The position numbers were made by a program, and so were the translations under genes. Positions 960-15,397 of a stretch of 32,943 nt of DNA are shown here, piece after piece. The stretch lies in the NCBI GenBank assembly GCA_002685075.1, contig NYWO01000102.1:1-32943 (forward strand), written 5' to 3'. The notes beneath the pieces were generated by a model that made no database searches, was not told where the DNA came from, and saw only the letters and a list, made by a program, of their open reading frames with translations. This stretch comes from Arcobacter sp. (GTDB lineage: Bacteria > Campylobacterota > Campylobacteria > Campylobacterales > Arcobacteraceae). Position 1 is the stretch's first letter. Each line of letters begins with the position of its first letter.

Positions 960-987
960 AGAGATAAGTTTTCTTATCTCTATTTTT
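960..987 (+). terminator. Hairpin terminator of the small ORF unit
   Basis: Perfect 9-bp stem AGAGATAAG/CTTATCTCT with a TTTT loop, followed by ATTTTT. It lies between the small ORF and the end of the convergent TonB receptor gene, whose stop codon is at 986-988. It could work weakly in the other direction too. Confidence 0.8.
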
Positions 988-2992
988 AAAACTTATATTT
1001 AAAAGTTACTAAAAACTCTCTGCCTTTTGTAAAAGCTCCATTTTTAAAACTAGTTAATGTTGAACCTGCTGGTATTCTATTGTCTCTATCTAGTAAATTT
1101 GTAATATTTAAATTTAATGATGTATTTTTATTAAAATGATGATTTATATTTGTTGTTACATTTATATTAGCATTACTATTTTTCCCGTATCTAGTTGATG
1201 TTCCATTGATAATTGGGGCTTTCATAGAACTTATATAGTTAAGTAATAAAGAGTATCTTGTCTTATCTTTTAAGTATGACATTTGTATTTTTCCTAAAAC
1301 TTTAGGTGAAAAATCTGGATCATAGTTTGTTGAACCATCACTTGTTTGATTTTTTGTATCTTGTAAGGTAATACTTGATGATGTTTCAAAGTTATAGTTT
1401 GGTTTATATGTTACTGCAAATTCAAAACCTTTTGTAAACTTATTGCCAATAGCAGAGGTTGGAAGACTTGAACCATTTTGAGTAAATAAACTGATATTTT
1501 TAGCTTCATTATAAAAAATGGAAGAGTTGATTTGATATTTTTTTGATAGATATATATAGTTTATCTCACTACTATTTATCTCTTCAAATTTATCTATACT
1601 AGAGTAGGTAAGCTGATTTGCTTTTCCATATAAAAACTTTAAGTGATTATTTGAATTTATATGATAAATGGCACTGAATTCAGGTAAATAATCTGCTTTA
1701 CTATCTATATTTCCAGTAATTATTTGATCAAATTCTGTATCACTTAAATCATTATCTTGTTTAAAAGTCATAAGAAAATCATTTCTTTTTGTATATCTTA
1801 TTCCACTATTAAATTCAAATTTATCAGAAAACTTATACTGTAGTTTAGAATACAAATCATAACTTGAATAAGTATAATTTCTTTCATTTGCAATTGTATT
1901 TAGTGTGGCATTTAAATTATAATCGATATCTTCATAACTTGAACCTATCAAAAATTTTGTTTTATCATTTACAATATAGTTTAAATGTATATCAAATTGG
2001 TTTCTTTTTACTTTATTATGATTATTTACAGTGGCATTTTCATCTTCTAATATATTAAAATCATCTATATCATAACTCTTTTGAGATGTAATAAAGTTAG
2101 CTTTATAACTTAAGTTCTCACTTAATTCATCTTCATATGTAAGTGCTAAAGATTTCTCTACTTGTTCTACTTCATTTCCATTTCTATATGTTGGTTCTAT
2201 ATATATCCCATAATTTGTTTCAGAGATATTAATATCAGTAGTTAAGTTTTTATATCTATGTGAAAAATCTAAAGTTTTATATTTATTTTCAAGTAAACCT
2301 TTTAAATTTTCTACAGCACTTGATGGTCTTGAACTATAATAACTTGAATCAAAAGCATCTTCTAAATCACCATCAATTCCATCTGTTTGATAAAAACTAG
2401 TATTTAATGTAAATCCACCATCTTCATTTTTATGATTTACTCTTGCAAATACTTTTTCTTGTCCATTATTACCTTTTGAAAGTGAAACTATATTTTTTTC
2501 ATTAAAATCATTAGTTATTATATTAATAGAACCATACATTGAGTTACTTCCATAAGTAACGGCTTGTGGTCCTTTTATAATCTCAATCCTATCAATTGCT
2601 TCAATAGGAGTTGCAAAAAAGTTTCTATTTGATGTTCCACCTCTTGGAATCCTAAGCGGTGTTATTGTATTGTTGTTAATCATTAATTTAAAAGAGGACC
2701 CTAAACTTCCTCTAGAACCTATTTGGAAATGCTCAGTATCATCAACTATAAATAATCCTGGAATATGTTTTAATAACTCCTCAAGTGTTGAATAATTATA
2801 TTTTTCAATCTCTTTTCTTGTAATTACTGTAATATTTGCAGGAATTTCTTCTATTCTTTGATAACTCTTTGTTGCTGAATATATTTTTATATTCATTAAC
2901 TCTTCAAGTGATAAGTCATCTAAAGAGTCTAAATTACTTTGGTTTGCATATAGTACATTTGCAAGCAATAGTGTACTTAATATAATTTTCAT
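986..2992 (-). CDS. TonB-dependent outer-membrane receptor
   Basis: A 668-residue outer-membrane receptor. The first ~17 residues form a signal peptide (MKIILSTLLLANVLYA). A short N-terminal segment with SLEELMNIKIYSATK is typical of the family, and a plug domain follows at about residues 45-165 (ITVITRKEIE, then IEIIKGPQAVTYGSN). The rest is beta-strand-rich barrel and ends in phenylalanine (LVTFKYKF), the usual BAM signal. Substrate cannot be told from sequence. It is the last gene of a four-gene operon: its ATG overlaps the kinase stop as ATGA, and its AGGAG ribosome binding site lies inside the kinase gene. The co-transcribed kinase, YfiR-like protein and EAL regulator suggest that ligand uptake or binding is tied to signalling (inference). 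No tonB, exbB or exbD lies in the operon. Confidence 0.93.
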   Translation of the reverse strand: MKIILSTLLLANVLYANQSNLDSLDDLSLEELMNIKIYSATKSYQRIEEIPANITVITRKEIEKYNYSTLEELLKHIPGLFIVDDTEHFQIGSRGSLGSSFKLMINNNTITPLRIPRGGTSNRNFFATPIEAIDRIEIIKGPQAVTYGSNSMYGSINIITNDFNEKNIVSLSKGNNGQEKVFARVNHKNEDGGFTLNTSFYQTDGIDGDLEDAFDSSYYSSRPSSAVENLKGLLENKYKTLDFSHRYKNLTTDINISETNYGIYIEPTYRNGNEVEQVEKSLALTYEDELSENLSYKANFITSQKSYDIDDFNILEDENATVNNHNKVKRNQFDIHLNYIVNDKTKFLIGSSYEDIDYNLNATLNTIANERNYTYSSYDLYSKLQYKFSDKFEFNSGIRYTKRNDFLMTFKQDNDLSDTEFDQIITGNIDSKADYLPEFSAIYHINSNNHLKFLYGKANQLTYSSIDKFEEINSSEINYIYLSKKYQINSSIFYNEAKNISLFTQNGSSLPTSAIGNKFTKGFEFAVTYKPNYNFETSSSITLQDTKNQTSDGSTNYDPDFSPKVLGKIQMSYLKDKTRYSLLLNYISSMKAPIINGTSTRYGKNSNANINVTTNINHHFNKNTSLNLNITNLLDRDNRIPAGSTLTSFKNGAFTKGREFLVTFKYKF

Positions 2993-4572
2993 ATTTTCTC
3001 CTCATAAGAGTATGTTCTAGGTATTTTAATAATAAACTGTGTACTTATGTTCTCTTCACTTTTAAATGTAAGAGAGCCTTTTAATTTTTGATAAATAAGA
3101 TTATAAACAATATTTAATCCAAGTCCCGTTCCACCTGCATTTCTTTTTGTTGTGATAAATGGTTCAAATATCTTTTCTTTTATACTTAAATCAATACCTT
3201 TTCCGTTATCTTCATAAACTATCTTAATCATATCTTCCTCTATTGTAATCATTACATTTATTTTTGCATTAGTTCTAAAATCGCTAAAACCATGAATTAT
3301 TGAATTTTGTATTAGGTTATTAAATATTTGGGCAATAACTCCTGGTGATGTTTTAATTAATAAATTATCATCTTCATTTTTAATTATAATTTCTACAGGT
3401 ATTGTTTTTAATTTATTATTATTAGTTAGGAATATTTCTTCAATATAATTTTTAATATTAAATTCTCTAACATCATTTGTTACTTGATCTACAGAAATTT
3501 GTTTAAAACTTTTTATTAACTCAGATGAATAATGTAAACTCTTTATTAGTAAAGATGAACTATCATTTAATACCTTTAGCCTTGATTCCATAACAGATCG
3601 TTTTAATGTTCCATTTTTCAAGTCTTGTAGCAAATAGTTTGATTCTTTTTTTATTATAGAACTACTTGTTATTGCATTTCCTAATGGAGTATTAACTTCA
3701 TGGGCTATTCCACTTACTAGATTACCTAGGGCTGACATCTTTTCTGATTGAATTAATTGTTCTTGAGCCTCTTTTAACTCTTTTAAACTCTTCTCTAATA
3801 GTTCTCTTTTTTTATTTAATTCATTAGTTCTGTATGATACTTGGTTCTCTAAATTTACTGTTGATTTTTCCATATCCATAAGAAGTGAATTATATGCTTT
3901 ATATAAAGAACCAATTTCATTTTTTGAATCATGACTTACTCTTATTTTATAATTTCTAGTTTTTGCAATTTCTTCTGAAGTTTTTGCAAGATGAAGAATT
4001 GGTTTTAATAAATAATCACTTAAAAGAATTGAAACCCCATATGTTATTATTAATAATATAATTGTAAAAAATATAATATCATTAAAAACTTTTTTTAATA
4101 TAGTAGTGATAATTTTTGTAGATTTTTCAATATATAAAGTTCCATAAATATTTCCTTGATGTTTAAGTGCTATAGTTATTTTTAATGTACCAAAATTTAA
4201 AAAATCCTTATTCATATTATCAAAGTAATATTCTTTAAATTCTGGATTTATTTCACTTTGCTTTTTAGAAGGATTATATTGTGCAAATATATTTTTATCA
4301 TTATCAAAAATTATAACTCTTAATATATTATGATCTTTATTTAGTTTATTTAGTGTTTCTTCTGCCCCTTCTATATCATTGAAGATTAAAGGGGTAACAC
4401 TAAATTCTGCTAGTAAATTGGCTTCAATTAGAGAGTTTTGTAAAAAACTATCCTTCTTTTGTTCAATACTTGAAGAGAAATTAAAATATGTAACTATAAA
4501 GACAATGAATGAGAATATGATGATAAAAGTAATTACTAATTGACTTCGTATAGATAAGCTTATTATTTTCAT
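2989..4572 (-). CDS. Membrane sensor histidine kinase with HAMP domain
   Basis: A 527-residue sensor kinase. Transmembrane helix 1 is near residues 11-29, a periplasmic sensing region follows to about 162, helix 2 is at about 163-185, then a HAMP segment and a coiled coil (RELLEKSLKELKEAQEQL). The dimerisation box carries the phospho-accepting histidine at about residue 291 (GIAHEVNTPLGNA). The catalytic domain shows an N box (IFNNLIQNSIIHGF), G1 (DNGKGI) and G2 (GGTGLGLNIVYNL), so it should be active. There is no receiver domain. The gene lies two bases after the YfiR-like gene and overlaps the receptor start by four bases. The likely partner is the REC-EAL regulator encoded first in the operon. 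The periplasmic domain may read the YfiR-like protein or the receptor (inference). Confidence 0.93.
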   Translation of the reverse strand: MKIISLSIRSQLVITFIIIFSFIVFIVTYFNFSSSIEQKKDSFLQNSLIEANLLAEFSVTPLIFNDIEGAEETLNKLNKDHNILRVIIFDNDKNIFAQYNPSKKQSEINPEFKEYYFDNMNKDFLNFGTLKITIALKHQGNIYGTLYIEKSTKIITTILKKVFNDIIFFTIILLIITYGVSILLSDYLLKPILHLAKTSEEIAKTRNYKIRVSHDSKNEIGSLYKAYNSLLMDMEKSTVNLENQVSYRTNELNKKRELLEKSLKELKEAQEQLIQSEKMSALGNLVSGIAHEVNTPLGNAITSSSIIKKESNYLLQDLKNGTLKRSVMESRLKVLNDSSSLLIKSLHYSSELIKSFKQISVDQVTNDVREFNIKNYIEEIFLTNNNKLKTIPVEIIIKNEDDNLLIKTSPGVIAQIFNNLIQNSIIHGFSDFRTNAKINVMITIEEDMIKIVYEDNGKGIDLSIKEKIFEPFITTKRNAGGTGLGLNIVYNLIYQKLKGSLTFKSEENISTQFIIKIPRTYSYEEKI

Positions 4573-4574
4573 AA

Positions 4575-5090
4575 TTACTTCTTATCCTTTACGATTTTTG
4601 CAAGTTTTAATATTTTATAACTTGCTTTTAAATTAGCATTTTCTAAAGATTCTTGATTTATTATAAATTTAATTCTTTTTTCTTTATAATAGATACCTAA
4701 ATGCATACCCTGATATACATCATCAGGAAATTCAGTAATTATTAAAATTGGTTTATTTTTTATTCTTTTTAGAATTAAGTCAATATTTACAGAAGATTCT
4801 TTTGTAAAATAAATAAGATTTAAATCATCAATCTCATCTTGTGTAAAGTTATTAATATTATATATTTTTATATCTAAGTTATGAATCTTTTTATTACTAT
4901 AAAATATTTCCATATCTTTTGATATTTTTTCATTTTTGTAAATACCAATTTTAAAATTATCTTTTATTTCAGGCCATTGAATAAATTGTGTTATTTTTTC
5001 TATTAAAGAAATTTTTATTGAACTTGAAGCGTCAATATTTGAGGATATTAGGATTATAAAAAAGATTGTTTTAATTAGTAGCTTAAACAT
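4575..5090 (-). CDS. YfiR-like (DUF4154) periplasmic protein
   Basis: A 171-residue exported protein with an N-terminal signal segment (KTIFFIILISSNIDASS). The pattern matches the YfiR/DUF4154 family: an early KITQFIQWPE stretch (the family's F-x-x-W-P), LIYFTKES in the middle, and late KIKFIIN-like and SLENANLKASYKILKLAKIV strands and helix. In Pseudomonas, YfiR represses the membrane diguanylate cyclase YfiN from the periplasm. Here no YfiN-like cyclase is adjacent, so the target is probably the neighbouring histidine kinase (inference). No cysteines are visible, so the disulfide control known for Pseudomonas YfiR is unlikely. Gene gaps on both sides are two bases. Confidence 0.8.
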   Translation of the reverse strand: MFKLLIKTIFFIILISSNIDASSSIKISLIEKITQFIQWPEIKDNFKIGIYKNEKISKDMEIFYSNKKIHNLDIKIYNINNFTQDEIDDLNLIYFTKESSVNIDLILKRIKNKPILIITEFPDDVYQGMHLGIYYKEKRIKFIINQESLENANLKASYKILKLAKIVKDKK

Positions 5091-5092
5091 AA

Positions 5093-6796
5093 TTATTTTA
5101 AGTCACCTTCAGGTTTACCAAAATAATATCCTTGAGCATAATCAATACCCATACTACTTACTTTATCAAAAACTTCTTTGGAATGAACGTACTCTGCTAT
5201 TGTTTTTACTTGTATTTTTTTAGAATATAAATAAATTGCCTCAGTTATATACTCTGAATATTTATCTTTATGAATATCTTTTATAAAAGCACCATCTATT
5301 TTTACACTATTTATATCTAATGCTTTTAATTGAGAAAAGTTTGAATATTCAGCTCCAAAGTCATCAATACTTAGTAAAAATCCAGCTTTTTTTAGTTGTA
5401 TTAAATTTTCTTGTGCATATATGTTTTTGCTAATACTAGCTTCTTCTAAAATTTCTAAAGAAATTCGTGATGGATTTATATCATATTGATTACAATGTAT
5501 AAGTAAGTTTTCTACAAACTTTTTATTCATTAAATCATGATTTGTAATATTTACAGAAAATTCTAAATTATTAGAAGAAAATTTTTGGCAAGCTTGTTCA
5601 AATACGATTTTTGTAATTTTTGTTAATAATCCAGCATTTCTAGCAGCTCCTAAAAAATGAATGGGAGTGAAAATCTCATCATTATATTTTAGTCGTACTA
5701 ATGTTTCATATTTAACTATCATTTGTGTTTTACAGTCAACTATTGGTTGATAGTAAGTAAGTATATTCTTTTCTTCAATTGCTTTTGCAAGTCTTTTTGA
5801 CCATAAAAGATTGTTATTTATTATCTTGATAGTAGCTAATTCTTCTGAATAGAACTCTATTTTATTATCTTGCTTTTTTCTTGAAGCAAATACTGCAATT
5901 TCTGCTTTTGGTAGTAAATCTTTTGTTGAATTAGAAATACCAATACTTACACTTAAAAATAGTCTTAAATCCTCTATATTAAAATATTTTGAACTTAAAC
6001 GAGATTTTATTTTTAATGCAGTATCTAATAAGTACTTATCTTCTTTATTTTCAAAAAGTAAAACAAACTTATCTGATTCTATTCTATATATTGACTCTGT
6101 ATCTACTTTACTATCTTGTAATATATTTGCAATTTTGCATAAAATTTGATCCCCAACTAAATAGCCATATGCATTATTAATAGAACTAAAAGAGTCAACA
6201 TCAATAAGTATTAATGAACCATTTTTTACTTTCTTTAAATCACTATATAATTTAGATCTTGAGTAGAGGTTTGTTATTGAGTCATTTGTTAAGCTATTAA
6301 AAAGTTCATTTTTTTTATTTTCAAGTTCACTTATTTGTTTATATTGTGCAAGTGCAGTTCTTGTAGTTGTATATAATTTTGTAGTTGTAAGTTCTGTTTT
6401 TTCTTTATAATCATTTATATCATATTTATTAATTATCTCATGTTCAGGTGCATAACCTGGTTGTCCTGTCCTTATAATAATTCTAATTAATTTATTTCCT
6501 AAGACATTTCTAATATAATCAACTACTTGTAATCCTGCATCATTTGATTCCATAACAATATCAAGTAATACAAATGCAAAATCAGAATTATCTAATAATA
6601 AATTTTTAGCTTCTTTTGCAGAGTATGCTGAAATTAAATCTAATTCTCTATTATCAAATGAAAAATCATGAAGTGCTAATTTTGTTACAGCATGAACTTC
6701 TTTATCATCATCAATAATTAAAACTTTCCACTTGCTATTTTGATTATTTATATTAATACTGTCCTCTTCTATAAAAATTAAGTCATCATTATTCAT
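5093..6796 (-). CDS. Response regulator: REC, degenerate GGDEF, EAL
   Basis: A 567-residue cytoplasmic regulator. The N-terminal receiver has an acidic cluster in VLIIDDDKE, the predicted phospho-acceptor D79 (FVLLDIVME) and RTGQPGYAPEHE, a variant receiver seen with output domains. The GGDEF domain (about 170-325) is degenerate: the active-site loop reads YRIESDKFVLLF instead of a GGDEF core, so cyclase activity is unlikely. The C-terminal EAL domain (about 335-565) keeps its catalytic set: ETL for EAL, NITNHD, EILEE, DDFGAEYS, VKIDG, AEYV and AQGYYFG. It should hydrolyse c-di-GMP, with the GGDEF domain perhaps binding GTP as a switch. It is the first gene of the operon and probably receives phosphate from the kinase encoded at 2989-4572. 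Confidence 0.92.
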   Translation of the reverse strand: MNNDDLIFIEEDSININNQNSKWKVLIIDDDKEVHAVTKLALHDFSFDNRELDLISAYSAKEAKNLLLDNSDFAFVLLDIVMESNDAGLQVVDYIRNVLGNKLIRIIIRTGQPGYAPEHEIINKYDINDYKEKTELTTTKLYTTTRTALAQYKQISELENKKNELFNSLTNDSITNLYSRSKLYSDLKKVKNGSLILIDVDSFSSINNAYGYLVGDQILCKIANILQDSKVDTESIYRIESDKFVLLFENKEDKYLLDTALKIKSRLSSKYFNIEDLRLFLSVSIGISNSTKDLLPKAEIAVFASRKKQDNKIEFYSEELATIKIINNNLLWSKRLAKAIEEKNILTYYQPIVDCKTQMIVKYETLVRLKYNDEIFTPIHFLGAARNAGLLTKITKIVFEQACQKFSSNNLEFSVNITNHDLMNKKFVENLLIHCNQYDINPSRISLEILEEASISKNIYAQENLIQLKKAGFLLSIDDFGAEYSNFSQLKALDINSVKIDGAFIKDIHKDKYSEYITEAIYLYSKKIQVKTIAEYVHSKEVFDKVSSMGIDYAQGYYFGKPEGDLK

Positions 6797-6827
6797 CTAG
6801 AAAATCCATTCAAATATTAGTTATTAA

Positions 6828-6872
6828 AGTATATATATCTTATATTAATTGTAAAATGATGTATATTTTACA
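6828..6872 (-). promoter_or_regulatory. Promoter with operator-like inverted repeat
   Basis: On the minus strand a TTTACA -35 (plus-strand 6850-6855) and a TATACT -10 (6828-6833) are 16 bases apart, about 30 bases before the regulator ATG. The -35 lies inside a perfect inverted repeat, TGTAAAAT at 6850-6857 and ATTTTACA at 6865-6872, with a 7-base spacer. This looks like a binding site for a dimeric regulator controlling the four-gene operon. The rest of the 258-base divergent gap to 7054 is AT-rich with no ORF seen. Confidence 0.55.
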
Positions 6873-7054
6873 TATAAAAGAATAAAAATATGGTACTTAA
6901 ACTATTATAGGTAAATAAATATTATTTTTTTATTAAAATTTCAAATTTAATTTTTAAACTACTTCTCTATTAATAGATTAGTTTTTTAGTTTAAAAGTAA
7001 AATAACATAGATTTAGATAAAATCACGAAAATATATAATATAGGAAAATATAAT

Positions 7055-7975
7055 ATGGCAATTTATACATGTGGACATACAACTCCTGATTCAGATTCAA
7101 TCTGTTCAGCTATTTCATTAGGTTATTTATTAAATAAAATTGGACGTGAAGCAATTCCTGCACGTCAAGGACCTGTTTCTCCTGAAACACAATTTATTTT
7201 AGATAAGTTTGGTTTTGAAGCACCATTATTAAAAACACAATTTGCTGGTGAAGAATTATTTATCACTGATTATTCAGATAAAGGTCAAGCACCTGCTGAT
7301 ATTGATCAAGCTACTGTTGTTGGTATTGTAGATCACCATAAATTAGGAGATATTACTACTTCAACTCCATTAGAGTGTTGGATTAGACCTGTTGGTTGTA
7401 CAAATACAATTGTAAAAGAAATGTATGATTATCATGGTGTTGAAATTCCAGCTAATATTGCAGGAATTATGTTATGTGCGATTCTTTCTGATACTGTAAT
7501 TTTCAAATCACCAACATGTACTCCAATTGATATGAAAATTGTTAAAGAATTAGCAGCAATTGCTGGTGTTAACGATTTTGCAGCTTTAGGGATGGAAATG
7601 TTCAAAGTAAAATCAGCAGTTGATGGAGTACCTGTTAGAGAATTAATCTTAAGAGATTATAAACCTTTTGATATGCATGGAAGCGCTGTTGGAATTGGAC
7701 AATTAGAAGTAATTGATTTAGCTATTTTTGATTCAATTAAAGATGATTTAGAATCAGACTTAGAAGATTTAAGAGCAGAAAAAAATCTTCACACAGCTTG
7801 TTTAATTTTAACTGATATTATGAAAGAAGGTTCAGAAATTCTTGTAGCTTCAGTTGATAACTCAGTTTTTGAAAAAGCTTTTGATATTGAATTAGTTGAT
7901 GGAAAAGTTTGGTTAGATGGTTGTCTTTCTAGAAAAAAACAAATTATTCCTTTCTTAGAACCTGCATTTGCATAA
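7055..7975 (+). CDS. ppaC: Manganese-dependent inorganic pyrophosphatase
   Basis: A 306-residue family II pyrophosphatase of the DHH superfamily. It hydrolyses pyrophosphate in the cytoplasm and pulls biosynthetic reactions forward. Metal-binding motifs are visible: GHTTPDSDS (H8, D12, D14), D72 in ITDYSD, and D93-H94-H95 in VDHHKLGD. The C-terminal DHHA2 domain ends with the substrate-binding SRKKQ motif at about 292-296. Length matches the short form without CBS domains. The start follows a TAGGAAAATATAAT ribosome binding region. The gene has its own upstream region and a strong terminator, so it is monocistronic. Its codon and base composition is slightly richer in GC than neighbours, as expected for a highly expressed gene. 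Confidence 0.97.
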   Translation: MAIYTCGHTTPDSDSICSAISLGYLLNKIGREAIPARQGPVSPETQFILDKFGFEAPLLKTQFAGEELFITDYSDKGQAPADIDQATVVGIVDHHKLGDITTSTPLECWIRPVGCTNTIVKEMYDYHGVEIPANIAGIMLCAILSDTVIFKSPTCTPIDMKIVKELAAIAGVNDFAALGMEMFKVKSAVDGVPVRELILRDYKPFDMHGSAVGIGQLEVIDLAIFDSIKDDLESDLEDLRAEKNLHTACLILTDIMKEGSEILVASVDNSVFEKAFDIELVDGKVWLDGCLSRKKQIIPFLEPAFA

Positions 7976-7980
7976 ATGCT

Positions 7981-8027
7981 TTAAATAATTCCCCTTTTGG
8001 GAATTATTTAAGTACTTTATTTTTTTA
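7981..8027 (+). terminator. Terminator after ppaC
   Basis: A perfect 13-bp stem (7981-7993 with 7999-8011) and a CTTTT loop, the inner pairs being CCC/GGG. A run of T residues lies a few bases downstream (8015-8026). It isolates ppaC from the riboswitch-controlled operon. Confidence 0.85.
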
Positions 8028-8084
8028 TAATCACCACTTTTTAAAATCTTAAGCCTAATATAGATAAAATCCAATTTATATAAT

Positions 8085-8230
8085 TAATCAGGTGAATAAC
8101 TTTTCAGTAAATTCATGGGAAATAGGTGAAAATCCAATACTGCCCCCGCAACGGTAATTTGTGTAAAACACAATAAGTCCGGAGACCGACCTTTTTAGTT
8201 TTCGATGCAAATCAGGCGGGGTGTCCTGAA
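8085..8230 (+). promoter_or_regulatory. Cobalamin riboswitch
   Basis: The conserved core of the AdoCbl/cobalamin aptamer is readable: an AGGTG near 8090, GGGAA at 8117, GGTGAAAATCC at 8125-8135, ACTGCCCCCGCAACGGTAA at 8139-8157, and AAGTCCGGAGACCGAC at 8175-8190. The kissing-loop interaction is also visible: CCCCGC (8144-8149) is complementary to GCGGGG (8216-8221), which begins at the 3' base of the first arm of a downstream stem TCAGG/CCTGA (8212-8216, 8225-8229) and runs into its loop. Candidate -10 elements lie at 8065-8070 (TAAAAT) or 8079-8084 (TATAAT). About 70 bases separate the aptamer from the AGGAAG ribosome binding site of the CobN-like gene. A bulged AT hairpin at about 8230-8258 could be part of the switch. 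Cobalamin would be expected to repress the downstream operon. Confidence 0.93.
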
Positions 8231-8310
8231 AGTAAGAAATAGTTTATTCTTTACTTACCTTATTTTACTCCAATTGACTTTTGTATTAATTTTTATTAAT
8301 AGGAAGTTTA

Positions 8311-11300
8311 ATGTCACTACTCAAACATTTTTTAGTGTTTTTTCTAATGTTTATTTTTTCAATAAATATTTTCGCCCAAGAAAATAGTAAATCTATTTTC
8401 ATTGTTGTTTCAGATAGGTCAGCTGCAGGATTAAATTCTGGTGCTAATTATTATTTGAAAAACTCTAATGATAAGATTTCTGTACGTACTGTTTCTCAAA
8501 TTTTGAATATGAGTAATACAAAGATTCAAGAAGAAATAAACAAAGCTGATATTGTTTTATATGCAGCTGTTTTTGGTGATGTAGTTGAAAAACTATTATC
8601 AAAAAACTATGAGGGTGTTAAAACTCTTAGCTCTCTTCAAGGAGATAGACGATTAATCTCTTTGAATAAAGATATTTCAAAAGCAGATTATACTTCTATT
8701 CCTTCAAAACTATTACTTAAAGATAAAGAGATATCTTCATACCAAGAATTACTGAACTTAAAACAAAAAGAGTTTAGAAACTATTCATATTACCTACAAG
8801 CAAGAGCTTATTGGGATAATAGAGGTAGTCAAAATATTTCAAACCTTTTTTCTTTTTTATCAAATAGTACATTAGATAAAAAAACATGGCCAAAGGTTTT
8901 AGAATTAAAACAAGTAAGATATTTTTTAAATGCAAATGCTTCTAAAACATATGAAAGTATAAGTGAATTAAAAAAAGATTTAAAAGATGATACAAATGTA
9001 ATATTTATTTTAGATAATGATAGAGCAGATAATTCAAGTGATTGGAAAGTTCATGAAGAAATTTATAAACAATCAAAATTACAAGTAGTATCAATTTTAA
9101 GTTCATGGGGAAAACCAAGTTTTCAAGCAGTTCATAGTTTAGAAGAATTAACAAAAAGTTTTTCTTCAAAACAAGCTTTTTCAATTATCTCTTTACAAGA
9201 TTTTGTAATAGGTGGTGGTGAGTCAAGACAAGATGTTACTAAAAGTTTAGAGAACTTAAATGTACCCGTTTTAAAAGCATTAAGAGTTCTTGATACAAAT
9301 GCATTATCTTATTCTTTATCATCTCAAGGCTTACCTGTTAATTCTGTTCATTATCGTATTTCTATGCCTGAACTTCAAGGAATAGGGCAAGTTTATATCT
9401 TAGCTATGAATAATGATTCTTCACTTGATTTACAAACAGGTGCTTTAATCATTGATACAAAATTAATGAAAGATGAAATTAAAAATATTATCAAAAAATC
9501 AAAAGCATGGATGAATTTAAAAACTAAAGATAATAGTGATAAAAAAATTGCAGTAATTTATTATAACCATCCTCCAGGAAGACATAATATTGGGGCAGAT
9601 AATTTGAATGTTCCAAAGTCACTATTTAAAATATTAAATGAGTTAAAAACTCAAGGCTATGATGTAGGTGAGTTGCCAAATTCTAGTGAAGAGTTATTAG
9701 ATCTTTTACAAGCAAAAGGTGTTAACTTACCAAATGATAAAAAAGCATTAAAAGAACAAAGCCAAAAAGTGGCAAAAGTAACTCTTGAAGACTATGAAGC
9801 GTATTTAAAAACACTTCCTTTAGATATTCAAGCTGAAATGAAATTTGGACCATTAAGTGCACTTCATGTAAAAATTGAAAGCTTTTTAAATGAAGATATA
9901 AAAACAGTAAAAGGTTCAAATAAAGCACCTTCTTATAAAGCAATAAAAGATTATATGCATAAAACTATTTCTAATTTACATCATGCACTTGATGGTGTTA
10001 GAAGTAAGAGTAGACAAAGGTCAATTAATTTATTAAAACAATTAGAAGATGAATATGAAAAAGTTTTAAAATTAAGTCAAGATGAAAAAGAGTTCTCTTT
10101 AGAAAACTCTACTGCATTAAAAGATGCAATTATTAAAATGGAAATAGAAGGTATTAGAGGTTGGGGTGCTGCTCCTGGTGTTGTTATGGTTTGGGATAAT
10201 GAACTTCTTGTACCTTCTGTAACTTTTGGAAATGTGATTTTAGCACCACAACCACCACGTGGTTGGGAGTTAAATGAAGAACTTCTTCATGCAAATTTAT
10301 CTTTTCCTCCAACTCATCAATATCTAGCTTTTTATTACTACATGAAAGATAAATTTAAAGCTGATGGTATTATTCATGTGGGTCGGCATTCAACTTATGA
10401 ATTTCTTCCACGAAAGAGTGTTGGTCTAAGTGCAAGTGATTACCCATCACTTATTATTGAGGGAATTCCTAGTATTTATCCATATATTGTAGATGGAGTA
10501 GGTGAGGGTATTCAAGCTAAAAGAAGAGGTCAAGCTATTATGATTGACCACTTAACTCCACCTTTAGCAACTACAAAACTTTACGATAATTTATTAGAAT
10601 TAAGACAGTTAATTGAAAGTGCAGAAGCAGCAAGTGATGATAATATTAGAAAGAATGCTATTAATAAAATAAAAGTATCAATTGATAAAATGAACTTACG
10701 AGCTGAATTAATTGAGAGTATGGACGAAGAATTACAAGTTAGAGGTATTGGTTTTGATGAGGTTGATGATGAGTTTTTACTTCATGAAGTAGGTCATTAT
10801 TTAACACATTTACAAGAAGAGTTTATGCCTTTAGGACTACACACCTTTGGACAAGATTGGACTTCAGAAGCAATTGATACGATGATTGAATCTATGAGTA
10901 AAGACTCTATAGTTTCCCAAGAAACAAAACAAAACTTAATTATTTCACCTAAAAAAGAGTTAGAATCTTTAGTAAATGCTTTAAATGGTGGATATGTAAG
11001 TGCAGGAAAAGGAAATGACCCAATTAGAACCGCTTCTGCACTTCCTACTGGACGAAATTTCTATGCTTTAGATGGTAGTTTAATTCCTTCAACTATTGCT
11101 TATGAAATAGGTGTTAAATTAGCACAAGATATAAGAGCTAAAAAAGAAAAAAACTCTCATAAAAAAGAAGCAGTTATTCTTTGGGCTTCAGATACAGTAA
11201 GAGATGAAGGTGCAATGGTTGCTTTTGGTCTTGATTTATTAGGTGTAAAACCTATTTGGAATAGTAGAGGAATTTTAAAAGGTTTAGAAAAACTTTCTTT

Positions 11301-12705
11301 AGATGAAAAAAGAACAAGTAGAGTTGATGTAGTATTTACATCATCTGGATTATTTAGAGATTTATATGGTTCTCAATTAGCATTATTAAATAAAGCAGTA
11401 TTAATGGCAATTGATTCTTCTTACGATGTAATAATTAATAAATATCCAGCTTTAACTTTATCATTAGAAAGTGCTTTATCAACTTTAGGTGAATTAAAAG
11501 TAGGTGGACATGAGAGTTTAGAAGTAAATGCTGTTGCTTTAAATTGGGTAGAAGAAGCAAGAGAAATATTGAAAAATAATCCTAATATGAATCTTGAAGA
11601 AGTTGGTAAAAAAGCATCTTATAGAGTTTTTGCAACTGCTCCTGGCTCTTACGGTGCAGGAATAAATAGATTAGTTGAACGTTCAGGTTCTTGGAATGAT
11701 AGAAAAGAATTAGGTGATGTATTTATTAAAAGAGTAGGATATGCTTATTCAGAAGATTTAGAAGGACAAGTTGCCCTTGATAGTTATAAAAGACAATTAA
11801 AAAATGTTGAAAACACATACTTAGGACGAGCTAGTAATCTATATGGTTTAATTGATAATAATGATACTTTTGATTATTTAGGAGGTCTAAATTTAGCTAT
11901 TGAAACAGTTACAGGAAAACAACCAAACTCTTTTGTAATTGATAATTCAAATTCAAAGAATGTTAAAATTGAAGCACTTCAAACAGCACTTTTAAGTGAG
12001 TTACGAGGAAGATTTTTAAATCCACAATGGATCAAACCTTTAATGAGTGAAGGTTATAGTGGTGCACGAACTATGGGAAGTGAATTTATAGAGTATCTTT
12101 GGGGATGGCAAGTTACTAGTCCTGAGATTATTACTAATTGGGTTTGGGAAGATGTAAAAGCTGTTTATATTGATGATAAATTAGATTTAGGTTTAGATGA
12201 GTTTTTATCGTCAAATCATCAAGTTCAAGTTCAAACAAATATGTTAGCAGTAATGTTAGTTGCAATACAAAAAGACTTTTGGAAAGCAGATGAAAAAACA
12301 CAAAAAGAATTAGCTCAGAAGTTTACACAAAATATAATCAAAAATGGAATACCAGGAAGTGGTCATACTCATGCAAATCATCCTATTTATGATTTTGTGA
12401 AAACTAAGATAGACAAAGAATCTGCAAAAAAACTAGAAAAAATACTTAATGAATCAAGACTTGATAATGTAGCTTTAAAAACTACTCCAAGTACTATTCA
12501 AGAGATTAACTTAGAAGAAAAACTACAAAAACAAGAAATAAAAAAAGTAGAAGAGTTAAATACAAAAGAGAATGAAAAAATAAAAGAAGAGTCTAAAAAT
12601 GAATCAGATGAAGAATCATTTATAAAATATTTTATATTAGCAGCAATATTAATTCTTTTAGCAGGACTAATTAAATCAATCTTCTTTTCAAGAGTAAAAG
12701 GATAA
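8311..12705 (+). CDS. cobN: CobN-like chelatase, exported and membrane-anchored
   Basis: A 1464-residue protein of the CobN/magnesium-chelatase H-subunit family. Family motifs include WGAAPGVVMVWD, ILAPQPPRGWE, HLTPPLATTKLYDNL and, at about 689-702, HVGRHSTYEFLPRK, where classical CobN usually reads HGTxEWLPGK. Unlike cytoplasmic CobN it starts with a signal peptide (LVFFLMFIFSINIFAQE, to about residue 23) and ends with a charged, probably coiled-coil linker (EIKKVEELNTKENEKIKEES) and one transmembrane helix at about 1437-1457. The bulk should therefore sit in the periplasm, tethered to the inner membrane. No CobS/CobT ATPase is adjacent. The next genes encode ExbB-like and DUF2149 proteins, and a cobalamin riboswitch precedes it. 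Roles to consider are corrinoid or metal-tetrapyrrole insertion, removal or uptake, as proposed for related HmuS-type proteins; which one is not decided by sequence. An AGGAAG ribosome binding site supports the start. Confidence 0.9.
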   Translation: MSLLKHFLVFFLMFIFSINIFAQENSKSIFIVVSDRSAAGLNSGANYYLKNSNDKISVRTVSQILNMSNTKIQEEINKADIVLYAAVFGDVVEKLLSKNYEGVKTLSSLQGDRRLISLNKDISKADYTSIPSKLLLKDKEISSYQELLNLKQKEFRNYSYYLQARAYWDNRGSQNISNLFSFLSNSTLDKKTWPKVLELKQVRYFLNANASKTYESISELKKDLKDDTNVIFILDNDRADNSSDWKVHEEIYKQSKLQVVSILSSWGKPSFQAVHSLEELTKSFSSKQAFSIISLQDFVIGGGESRQDVTKSLENLNVPVLKALRVLDTNALSYSLSSQGLPVNSVHYRISMPELQGIGQVYILAMNNDSSLDLQTGALIIDTKLMKDEIKNIIKKSKAWMNLKTKDNSDKKIAVIYYNHPPGRHNIGADNLNVPKSLFKILNELKTQGYDVGELPNSSEELLDLLQAKGVNLPNDKKALKEQSQKVAKVTLEDYEAYLKTLPLDIQAEMKFGPLSALHVKIESFLNEDIKTVKGSNKAPSYKAIKDYMHKTISNLHHALDGVRSKSRQRSINLLKQLEDEYEKVLKLSQDEKEFSLENSTALKDAIIKMEIEGIRGWGAAPGVVMVWDNELLVPSVTFGNVILAPQPPRGWELNEELLHANLSFPPTHQYLAFYYYMKDKFKADGIIHVGRHSTYEFLPRKSVGLSASDYPSLIIEGIPSIYPYIVDGVGEGIQAKRRGQAIMIDHLTPPLATTKLYDNLLELRQLIESAEAASDDNIRKNAINKIKVSIDKMNLRAELIESMDEELQVRGIGFDEVDDEFLLHEVGHYLTHLQEEFMPLGLHTFGQDWTSEAIDTMIESMSKDSIVSQETKQNLIISPKKELESLVNALNGGYVSAGKGNDPIRTASALPTGRNFYALDGSLIPSTIAYEIGVKLAQDIRAKKEKNSHKKEAVILWASDTVRDEGAMVAFGLDLLGVKPIWNSRGILKGLEKLSLDEKRTSRVDVVFTSSGLFRDLYGSQLALLNKAVLMAIDSSYDVIINKYPALTLSLESALSTLGELKVGGHESLEVNAVALNWVEEAREILKNNPNMNLEEVGKKASYRVFATAPGSYGAGINRLVERSGSWNDRKELGDVFIKRVGYAYSEDLEGQVALDSYKRQLKNVENTYLGRASNLYGLIDNNDTFDYLGGLNLAIETVTGKQPNSFVIDNSNSKNVKIEALQTALLSELRGRFLNPQWIKPLMSEGYSGARTMGSEFIEYLWGWQVTSPEIITNWVWEDVKAVYIDDKLDLGLDEFLSSNHQVQVQTNMLAVMLVAIQKDFWKADEKTQKELAQKFTQNIIKNGIPGSGHTHANHPIYDFVKTKIDKESAKKLEKILNESRLDNVALKTTPSTIQEINLEEKLQKQEIKKVEELNTKENEKIKEESKNESDEESFIKYFILAAILILLAGLIKSIFFSRVKG

Positions 12706-12707
12706 TT

Positions 12708-13169
12708 ATGTTTTCATCAATATCTGTAGGATTAATGCACCAAATCACAGCTATTTTATTAGAACCTGTTTCGTGGGCTTTAATATTTTTTGTTGTTTGG
12801 GGTTTATATGAAGTTGGTATAAGTATAGGTGAGCGAACTGTTGAGATAAATAAACTTATCAAAACAAATGATATTCCTTATGTTTTATCAATTGCAAAAA
12901 AAAGAATTGAAAGAGCTGATTTTATTACAAGATTAGCTCCTATGTTAGGACTTATGGGAACATTGATTCCATTAGGTCCTGGACTAGCAGCTCTTGGTGA
13001 TGGTGATGTTAAAATCTTAAGTACGGCTATGTCTGTTGCTTTTGATACAACTGTTTTAGGTTTATTAGCTGGAATGACTGGTTTTATAATTTCAAGGCTT
13101 CGAAAAAGATGGTATGACAAGGCTTTAACAATTATGGAAGAGCAAGTGGAAAAGAAATATGAAAAATAG
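12708..13169 (+). CDS. MotA/TolQ/ExbB-family proton-channel protein
   Basis: A 153-residue inner-membrane protein, short for the family. One hydrophobic segment is at about residues 15-37 (WALIFFVVWGLYEVG). A second long region has the ExbB/TolQ signature (RLAPMLGLMGTLIPLGPGL) and then a segment with VAFDTTVLGLLAGMTGFIIS, ending in basic residues. In the family these helices form the pentamer around an ExbD/TolR/MotB partner and conduct protons. The start is two bases after the CobN-like stop and the end overlaps the next gene by 11 bases, so the three are translated together. It most likely energises the anchored CobN-like protein rather than TonB (inference from context). Confidence 0.85.
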   Translation: MFSSISVGLMHQITAILLEPVSWALIFFVVWGLYEVGISIGERTVEINKLIKTNDIPYVLSIAKKRIERADFITRLAPMLGLMGTLIPLGPGLAALGDGDVKILSTAMSVAFDTTVLGLLAGMTGFIISRLRKRWYDKALTIMEEQVEKKYEK

Positions 13170-13464
13170 ATTTTCAAGTGATCATTTTATAAAAGAAGAT
13201 GATGAACCTTTAGGTCCATTAGCAAATCTTGTTGATATTATTTTAGTTTTTGCTTGTGGTTTAATAGCAGCTCTTGTAGCAATTAGTCCTAATTTACAAG
13301 AACATTTTAATGTTGAAGATTCTCAAAAAATTACCCAAGGTAAAGAGTTGGCAAATGTACCTAAAAATATAAAAGATAGTTTAGATTCAAAAGAAGGATT
13401 TAAATCTTTAGGTCAAGTATATAAAGACCCAAAGACTGGAAAATTAATTTTAATTAGTGAATAG
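13159..13464 (+). CDS. DUF2149 protein, ExbD-like topology
   Basis: A 101-residue protein matching the DUF2149 pattern DDEPLGPLANLVDIILVFACG. A short polar N-terminus precedes one transmembrane helix (about 20-43) and a small periplasmic tail. The helix begins with L-V-D-I-I-L-V, which resembles the P-L-V-D-V-M-L-V of ExbD/TolR, where the aspartate is the proton-carrying residue. Together with the ExbB-like partner just upstream (11-base overlap), this supports an ExbB/ExbD-type motor. DUF2149 genes are known to sit next to CobN-like and ExbB-like genes. The family has no settled function. It is the last gene of the riboswitch operon and ends 22 bases from a convergent gene. Confidence 0.85.
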   Translation: MKNRFSSDHFIKEDDEPLGPLANLVDIILVFACGLIAALVAISPNLQEHFNVEDSQKITQGKELANVPKNIKDSLDSKEGFKSLGQVYKDPKTGKLILISE

Positions 13465-14815: not shown

Positions 14816-15397
14816 TTATAAATTAATTAAATCTTCTTTATTAGTTATTTGTTTTTCAATAACTTGAATACCTTTTGCAAGAAGAGAATTTTTTAAACCT
14901 TCTCCTATTTTTGTAGATAAAAATATATTTACATTAAAATCTAAAAATATTTGAGGTAAAACAATTGCAGGTTTTGAAGCTTTTACATAAACATCACTTT
15001 CAATTGATTTTATTAAAGTTACTTCATTATCTTCAATTTTGTATATAGATATATATTGGTCTGTTGATAATATAGATTCAAAGTTATCTTTACTTGCAGA
15101 ACAAATTGCAACTATATAAGGTGTATTTGCATCTTCAATAGAAATTTTATTTCCATAAACAATTGCTCTTGTTAACTTTTGTCTTGCATTTTTTAAAATT
15201 CTAGTAAATGTAGGCCTTGAAACCTTCATACTTTCTGCTGCTTTTTCTTGATATAAGTCTAAAATATCCATTAAATAAATAGCTTCCATTTCTTCATCTA
15301 ATAGATGAGTAATCCCATTGTATGATTTATTCTCGGGTATATAATCTTTAAATGCTGGTTTAAAGACTAAATTTCTTTTTGTTTTTTCTCTTCCCAT
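14816..15397 (-). CDS. DUF134 HTH regulator with NifX-like domain
   Basis: A 193-residue protein. The N-terminal part (about 1-90) fits DUF134 DNA-binding proteins: LLDEEMEAIYLMDILDLYQEKAAE, then a sigma-factor-like helix-turn-helix in MKVSRPTFTRILKNARQKL. The C-terminal part (about 95-190) resembles the NifX/NifB-type dinitrogenase iron-molybdenum cofactor domain (IVAICSASKDNFESILS, VFLSTKIGEGLKNSLLAKGI). In DUF134 proteins this pairing suggests a cluster- or metal-responsive regulator. It is divergent from the DUF4492-cydAB operon, which ends in another NifX-like gene. The shared intergenic region holds a perfect 15-bp inverted repeat that is its most likely operator (inference). There are two cysteine-poor domains and no ligand site can be named. 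A CCTTGT-derived ACAAGGATA ribosome binding site precedes the ATG. Confidence 0.85.
   Translation of the reverse strand: MGREKTKRNLVFKPAFKDYIPENKSYNGITHLLDEEMEAIYLMDILDLYQEKAAESMKVSRPTFTRILKNARQKLTRAIVYGNKISIEDANTPYIVAICSASKDNFESILSTDQYISIYKIEDNEVTLIKSIESDVYVKASKPAIVLPQIFLDFNVNIFLSTKIGEGLKNSLLAKGIQVIEKQITNKEDLINL

Follow-up and report, generated by a model that had tools for sequence, protein, structure and literature searches.

The window, i.e. the whole stretch of 32,943 nucleotides analyzed here, carries on its + strand a set of three genes which ORF calls and a profile search of the window identified as coding for a CobN-like, an ExbB-like and a DUF2149 protein. The ExbB and DUF2149 ORFs are located directly downstream of the CobN-like gene and share 11 nt; this overlap and the matches of the two proteins to PF01618 and PF09919 bear out what an earlier note on this DNA had stated. 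A cobalamin riboswitch, absent from the account of the earlier note, is positioned immediately upstream of the CobN-like gene, and the same element is found at homologous places in relatives. Judged by spacing, no further gene joins the operon, which comprises the following features:

8073..8208, + strand: cobalamin riboswitch RF00174, operon leader (Rfam 64.7 bits, gathering 31.5, E 5.5e-14)
8311..12705, + strand: CobN-like (BtuS/HmuS-type) exported protein of 1464 aa with N-terminal signal peptide (PF02514, E 1e-242)
12487..12519, + strand: candidate linker or docking site next to the membrane, sequence PSTIQEINLEE (P-[ST]-x-[IV]-x-E-[IV] motif)
12631..12702, + strand: membrane helix at the C-terminus of the CobN-like protein, followed by a short basic tail (hydropathy)
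12708..13169, + strand: putative stator subunit of the ExbB/HmuU type, 153 aa, 3 helices (PF01618 MotA_ExbB, 1.3e-10)
13159..13464, + strand: DUF2149/HmuV-type subunit, 101 aa, one membrane helix with D26 (PF09919, 1.8e-11)

Among relatives, Poseidonibacter lekithochrous comes closest (ExbB 96%). In the CobN tree, the window protein and its kin from Campylobacterota are nested within a gammaproteobacterial clade, which suggests that the system was acquired by horizontal transfer. DUF2149 is rare in the phylum of the window, with matches in 6/298 genomes, one of these matches being a TolR. Elsewhere in the window, one run of genes on the - strand (986-6796) codes for a TonB-dependent receptor, a sensor kinase, a YfiR-like protein and a GGDEF/EAL protein and resembles, by NCBIfam, the YfiR-linked TOL_0243/0244 set. 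At 14816-15397, a DUF134 DNA-binding-like domain is joined to a weak NifX/FeMo-cofactor-type domain.

The best PDB match of the CobN-like protein is HmuS (9d26, 1.9e-112), a heme de-chelatase anchored by helices at both termini, from the hmuS-hmuT-hmuU-hmuV set of Bacteroidota (PMC12583661). Exported CobN-like proteins have been described as a third type of CobN relative and named BtuS; B. fragilis BtuS1 and BtuS2 were studied for heme iron, and the main text of that paper does not mention ExbB and DUF2149 (PMC6460266). The window protein belongs to this exported BtuS/HmuS type, as it combines a signal peptide and a C-terminal helix with a position in the tree within the motor-linked CobN clade, apart from cytosolic CobN. 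Its operon shares with the hmuYRSTUV operons the exported CobN-like protein with C-terminal helix, ExbB (HmuU) and DUF2149 (HmuV) but lacks HmuY, HmuR and HmuT, and further differs in its cobalamin riboswitch and its clade. The residue set of the heme de-chelatase, His-538, His-1209 and Glu-1212 of HmuS, is likewise not present: the triad reads H/D/D in the window protein and its clade, compared to H/D/Q in most cytosolic CobN and H/H/D in BchH, and H/H/E occurs only in the Bacteroidota loci (HmuS) and in L018.

The cobalamin riboswitch was detected in 20/24 scanned loci of the window's clade, and operons of relatives hold genes for B12 salvage or import (BtuR/CobO, CobQ/CobB, BtuF-like, BtuC-like, CbiB, CobS, CobU and CbiZ). 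Together these point to corrinoids as cargo, and heme had been set aside as cargo of the window system once the riboswitch was found. We infer from these sequence features that the window encodes a corrinoid system and not a heme system, with a corrinoid as its putative cargo. A role of the window protein as an HmuS-like heme de-chelatase of the periplasm, as its best PDB match and the conservation of His-538 might indicate, appears very improbable in view of the riboswitch, the B12 genes of relatives, the H/D/D triad and the separate tree branch. A single CobN was found in the window genome. CbiC, CobS, CobT and BtuR were not found, so that no de novo corrinoid route is seen, although these absences are provisional in a genome that is 86.5% complete.

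The ExbB-like subunit matches PF01618 with 41.6 bits (cut-off 22.9) and has three long helices. Its AF2 model reaches a pLDDT of 93.7, and the best Foldseek matches of this model are nearly all ExbB/TolQ. We placed T85 and T115 at T148 and T181 of E. coli ExbB (numbering according to PMC12905483). T85 is invariant in 59/59 ExbB sequences and is the predicted pore partner of the DUF2149 aspartate; T115 is Thr in 51/59. The DUF2149 protein matches PF09919 with 44.7 bits (cut-off 27.1), the only profile reported for it, and is not among the matches of the ExbD/TolR profile PF02472 in the window genome. Its D26 (codon GAT, 13234-13236) is part of the sequence A-N-L-V-D26-I-I-L-V-F and lies within a single membrane helix (residues 19-42) of the AF2 model. 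This model is confident for the helix only (pTM 0.30) and predicts a small C-terminal beta hairpin. An ExbD-like periplasmic domain is not apparent in it and a fold search returned no match, both with a model that is poor outside the helix.

The earlier note had likened this helix to the proton-carrying aspartate helix of ExbD/TolR and stated that its reading would be refuted if the aspartate were not conserved across DUF2149. The residue is, however, D in 135/136 DUF2149 sequences and E in one. The aligned rows (n=95, 94 DUF2149 and one TolR) contain D in 94 cases and E in 1, and D is found in 42/42 further DUF2149 from methanogens and Firmicutes, loci that were mostly fetched by Pfam profile alone and some of which may share genomes with others. 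An Asn three residues ahead of the Asp is nearly invariant. The DUF2149 profile weakly matches a genuine TolR in a TolQRA cluster (E 9e-4; own profile 1.5e-12), and hhalign of DUF2149 with ExbD places Asp on Asp, over the helix only (E 1.1e-3, probability 21%). Based on this cross-match and profile alignment, the likeness of the helix to ExbD/TolR exceeds chance at the level of sequence. No relative of DUF2149 was found in viral contigs. With ExbB-ExbD-TonB and TolQ-TolR-TolA the window system has in common a three-helix subunit with conserved pore Thr, a one-helix partner with a membrane Asp and a third one-helix protein. It differs from them in that its DUF2149 model, poor as it is outside the helix, has no periplasmic domain of ExbD size, in that the pair is also present in monoderms, and in its proposed client, which is C-terminally anchored and itself the cofactor protein.

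A C-terminal helix is present in 69/69 CobN from loci with the motor pair but only in 1/18 CobN/BchH proteins from 17 loci without it (Fisher 4e-17, for sequences that are not independent, since motor-linked CobN form one clade). The single control with a helix, L150, is a C-anchored exported CobN (4613-8731) with a CobW-like gene and then a CobN of the cytosolic type downstream, and neither ExbB nor DUF2149 occurs within its locus. In Marinobacter L149, which is nested in the motor clade, the signal peptide is retained while the C-terminal helix and the two motor genes have been lost, although the C-terminus may reflect a frameshift instead of a true loss. CobN frames that are split into at least two pieces beside intact motor genes (L040, L044, L063, L074 and L080) are probably due to frameshifts or assembly errors. 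If the C-terminal tail were a mere anchor or sorting signal and the pair had an unrelated function in the same cofactor operons, the layout of motif, helix and basic end would find a simple explanation, as it is that of a tripartite sorting signal, and so would the weakness of the tail motif in single sequences. We nevertheless consider this rather improbable, since such a reading is at odds with the linkage of helix and motor and with their co-loss in L149, and the tail in diderms is explained without any sortase.

As 12 aligned DUF2149 sequences proved too diverse to serve for scanning, ExbB was used as query instead. DUF2149 was located <=400 nt downstream of HmuU-type ExbB in 75/80 loci that had been fetched by the ExbB motif alone, and many of these 80 loci come from Methanobrevibacter, other methanogens, Firmicutes and Actinomycetota. 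DUF2149 is present in 134/150 genomes of the methanogen phylum and in 43/113 genomes of the Firmicutes class containing Sporotomaculum, two groups in which an outer membrane is not expected. ExbD was detected in 0/30 DUF2149-positive genomes tested of this Firmicutes class. The assumption that methanogens have no ExbD was rejected because an ExbB/ExbD-like pair is present beside another gene set: L113-L115 are methanogens with a second ExbB/ExbD-like pair, which has an ExbD-type Asp helix and adjoins other conserved genes.

Previous work described HmuU and HmuV as ExbB- and ExbD-like and linked them to TonB and the HmuR receptor (PMC10100974, PMC12583661). The view of the earlier note that this stator role of DUF2149 is not established has to be qualified: the likeness to ExbB/ExbD is in print, but with TonB/HmuR as object (PMC10100974). 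In such a role, the pair would serve as an auxiliary ExbBD and energize TonB together with an HmuR/BtuB-like receptor in the outer membrane, as has been stated for B. theta (PMC10100974, PMC12583661), and TonB-dependent receptors do adjoin many diderm copies. However, the pair and its C-anchored partner are also found in archaea and Firmicutes, L013 and L023 possess a TonB-ExbB-ExbD set of their own beside the ExbB-DUF2149 pair, and the window operon contains no receptor while its genome has four other ExbD/TolR loci. We therefore regard energization of TonB as unlikely.

Another published assignment, for HmuU/HmuV together with HmuT, is inner-membrane heme transport (PMC13227078). Accordingly, the pair and HmuT/DUF2162 could constitute an inner-membrane importer of tetrapyrroles or metals to which the CobN-like protein merely delivers the substrate. 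In many loci of archaea and Firmicutes (L079, L084, L091, L097, L100, L116-L145 and L166-L177), ExbB-DUF2149 is preceded by a membrane protein at the HmuT position (DUF2162 in L079), and several Firmicutes loci show the order HmuT/DUF2162-like gene, ExbB, DUF2149, CobN. Still, an HmuT-like gene is found neither in the window operon nor in the operons of most diderm relatives, the relatives of ExbB are stators and not permeases, and an importer would leave the linkage with the C-terminal helix unexplained, so that this alternative, too, is unlikely to hold. The occurrence of HmuT-like genes in archaea and Firmicutes indicates that HmuT is not heme-specific. HmuY, HmuT and HmuV have been termed diagnostic of heme transport (PMC10100974), a view that our findings contradict for HmuV and HmuT.

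Occurrence in monoderms, separate TonB stators, the linkage of anchor and motor and the co-loss in L149 all argue for a motor that acts on the anchored protein and not on the outer membrane. We consider it fairly probable that ExbB and DUF2149 are a proton-driven stator acting on the C-terminally anchored CobN-like cofactor protein. These genomic observations partly support the suggestion of the earlier note that the anchored CobN-like protein is the object of the stator, to which it would be physically coupled. We infer stator assembly, proton flow, a force on CobN, a corrinoid as cargo and a powered step. ExbB and DUF2149 would assemble into an inner-membrane stator of the ExbBD/TolQR type, expected as 5:2, and protons would travel past D26 of DUF2149, opposite T85/T115 of ExbB. 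In TonB-ExbBD and TolAQR, a single helix of TonB or TolA borders the ExbB/TolQ pentamer (PMC12905483). By analogy, the CobN-like protein would dock on ExbB with its C-terminal helix, which proton flow by D26 would set in motion. The stator would then act on this helix and the adjoining linker, with the large CobN-like body residing in the periplasm, and the movement could lead to conformational cycling of this body and hence to binding, distortion or release of the corrinoid, or of metal and ligand.

Cytosolic class I chelatases require an AAA+ motor (CobS/CobT or ChlI/ChlD), and the periplasm has no ATP. The window protein shares its homologous CobN/ChlH body with CobNST cobaltochelatase and ChlHID Mg-chelatase but is exported and anchored, and CobS/CobT were not found in its 86.5% complete genome. 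As ATP is absent from the periplasm, we propose that a proton motor would take the place of the ATP-driven CobS/CobT or ChlI/ChlD. Soluble HmuS without membrane helices halts after one or two turnovers, for which the authors give other causes (PMC12583661); this behavior fits the action of a motor, which could account for it if our reading is true. On the other hand, in vitro heme de-chelation by HmuS proceeds with no motor present, T115 is replaced by Val in 8/59 ExbB, L150 is anchored without a motor and the tail layout resembles sorting signals, all of which count against this reading.

ExbBD-type proton-driven stators are seen as machines for the outer membrane, motility or phage defence. 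Instead of the outer-membrane transport to which it has been assigned until now, the task of the ExbB-DUF2149 pair is probably to energize the scavenging of cofactors at the cell surface. If true, this would be a new use of such stators, on exported chelatases and cofactor proteins and with archaea and single-membrane bacteria included, and would explain how class I chelatases act where ATP is absent. In the literature searched, mostly outside subscription journals, we found no proposal that the pair acts on HmuS or CobN. The corrinoid setting, the spread to methanogens and Firmicutes, the linkage with the C-terminal helix and the tailed unrelated surface proteins described below are new here.

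In many loci of archaea and Firmicutes, the pair has as its large neighbor not a CobN but an exported protein with other domains, namely FmdE, NosD/beta-helix, PQQ-propeller, Big_2/Fn3_assoc or molybdopterin-oxidoreductase-like domains. These neighbors also end in a single membrane helix and a short charged tail. By a strict hydropathy rule, a C-anchored large neighbor, CobN or other, was assigned to 56/93 pairs compared to 10/282 other large genes of the same loci. The motor can thus not be called dedicated to the CobN-like protein, as the earlier note had it. A more general reading, which we put forward tentatively and at somewhat less than an even chance, is that ExbB-DUF2149 is a proton-driven cell-surface motor that docks a shared C-terminal tail and powers exported metal-cofactor proteins, also in archaea and monoderm bacteria, and that it replaces the AAA+ ATPase on exported CobN-like proteins. 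The metal cofactors concerned would be corrinoids and heme, possibly also the molybdenum cofactor.

The tails were compared by unsupervised motif search. With a flat background the search settled on low-complexity Ser/Gly linkers, so this result was dropped and the real background used instead. Archaeal CobN tails contain a K-[SA]-x-E-[IV]-[SN] peptide about 20 residues ahead of the helix. In non-CobN clients, this motif reached p<0.05 in only 4/14, and its best position lies 18-23 residues ahead of the helix in 9/14, a band that was picked post hoc. A tail peptide shared by CobN and unrelated clients is therefore no more than suggestive. Diderm CobN tails have a conserved peptide of their own, P-[ST]-x-[IV]-x-E-[IV], and the non-CobN motif did not transfer to them (1/43). 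As further observations on Firmicutes loci, molybdenum-cofactor riboswitches lead ExbB-DUF2149 operons in L088 (721-837 and 11051-11170) and L095 (6354-6483). The surface protein adjoining the motor in L087 and L088 resembles molybdopterin oxidoreductases.
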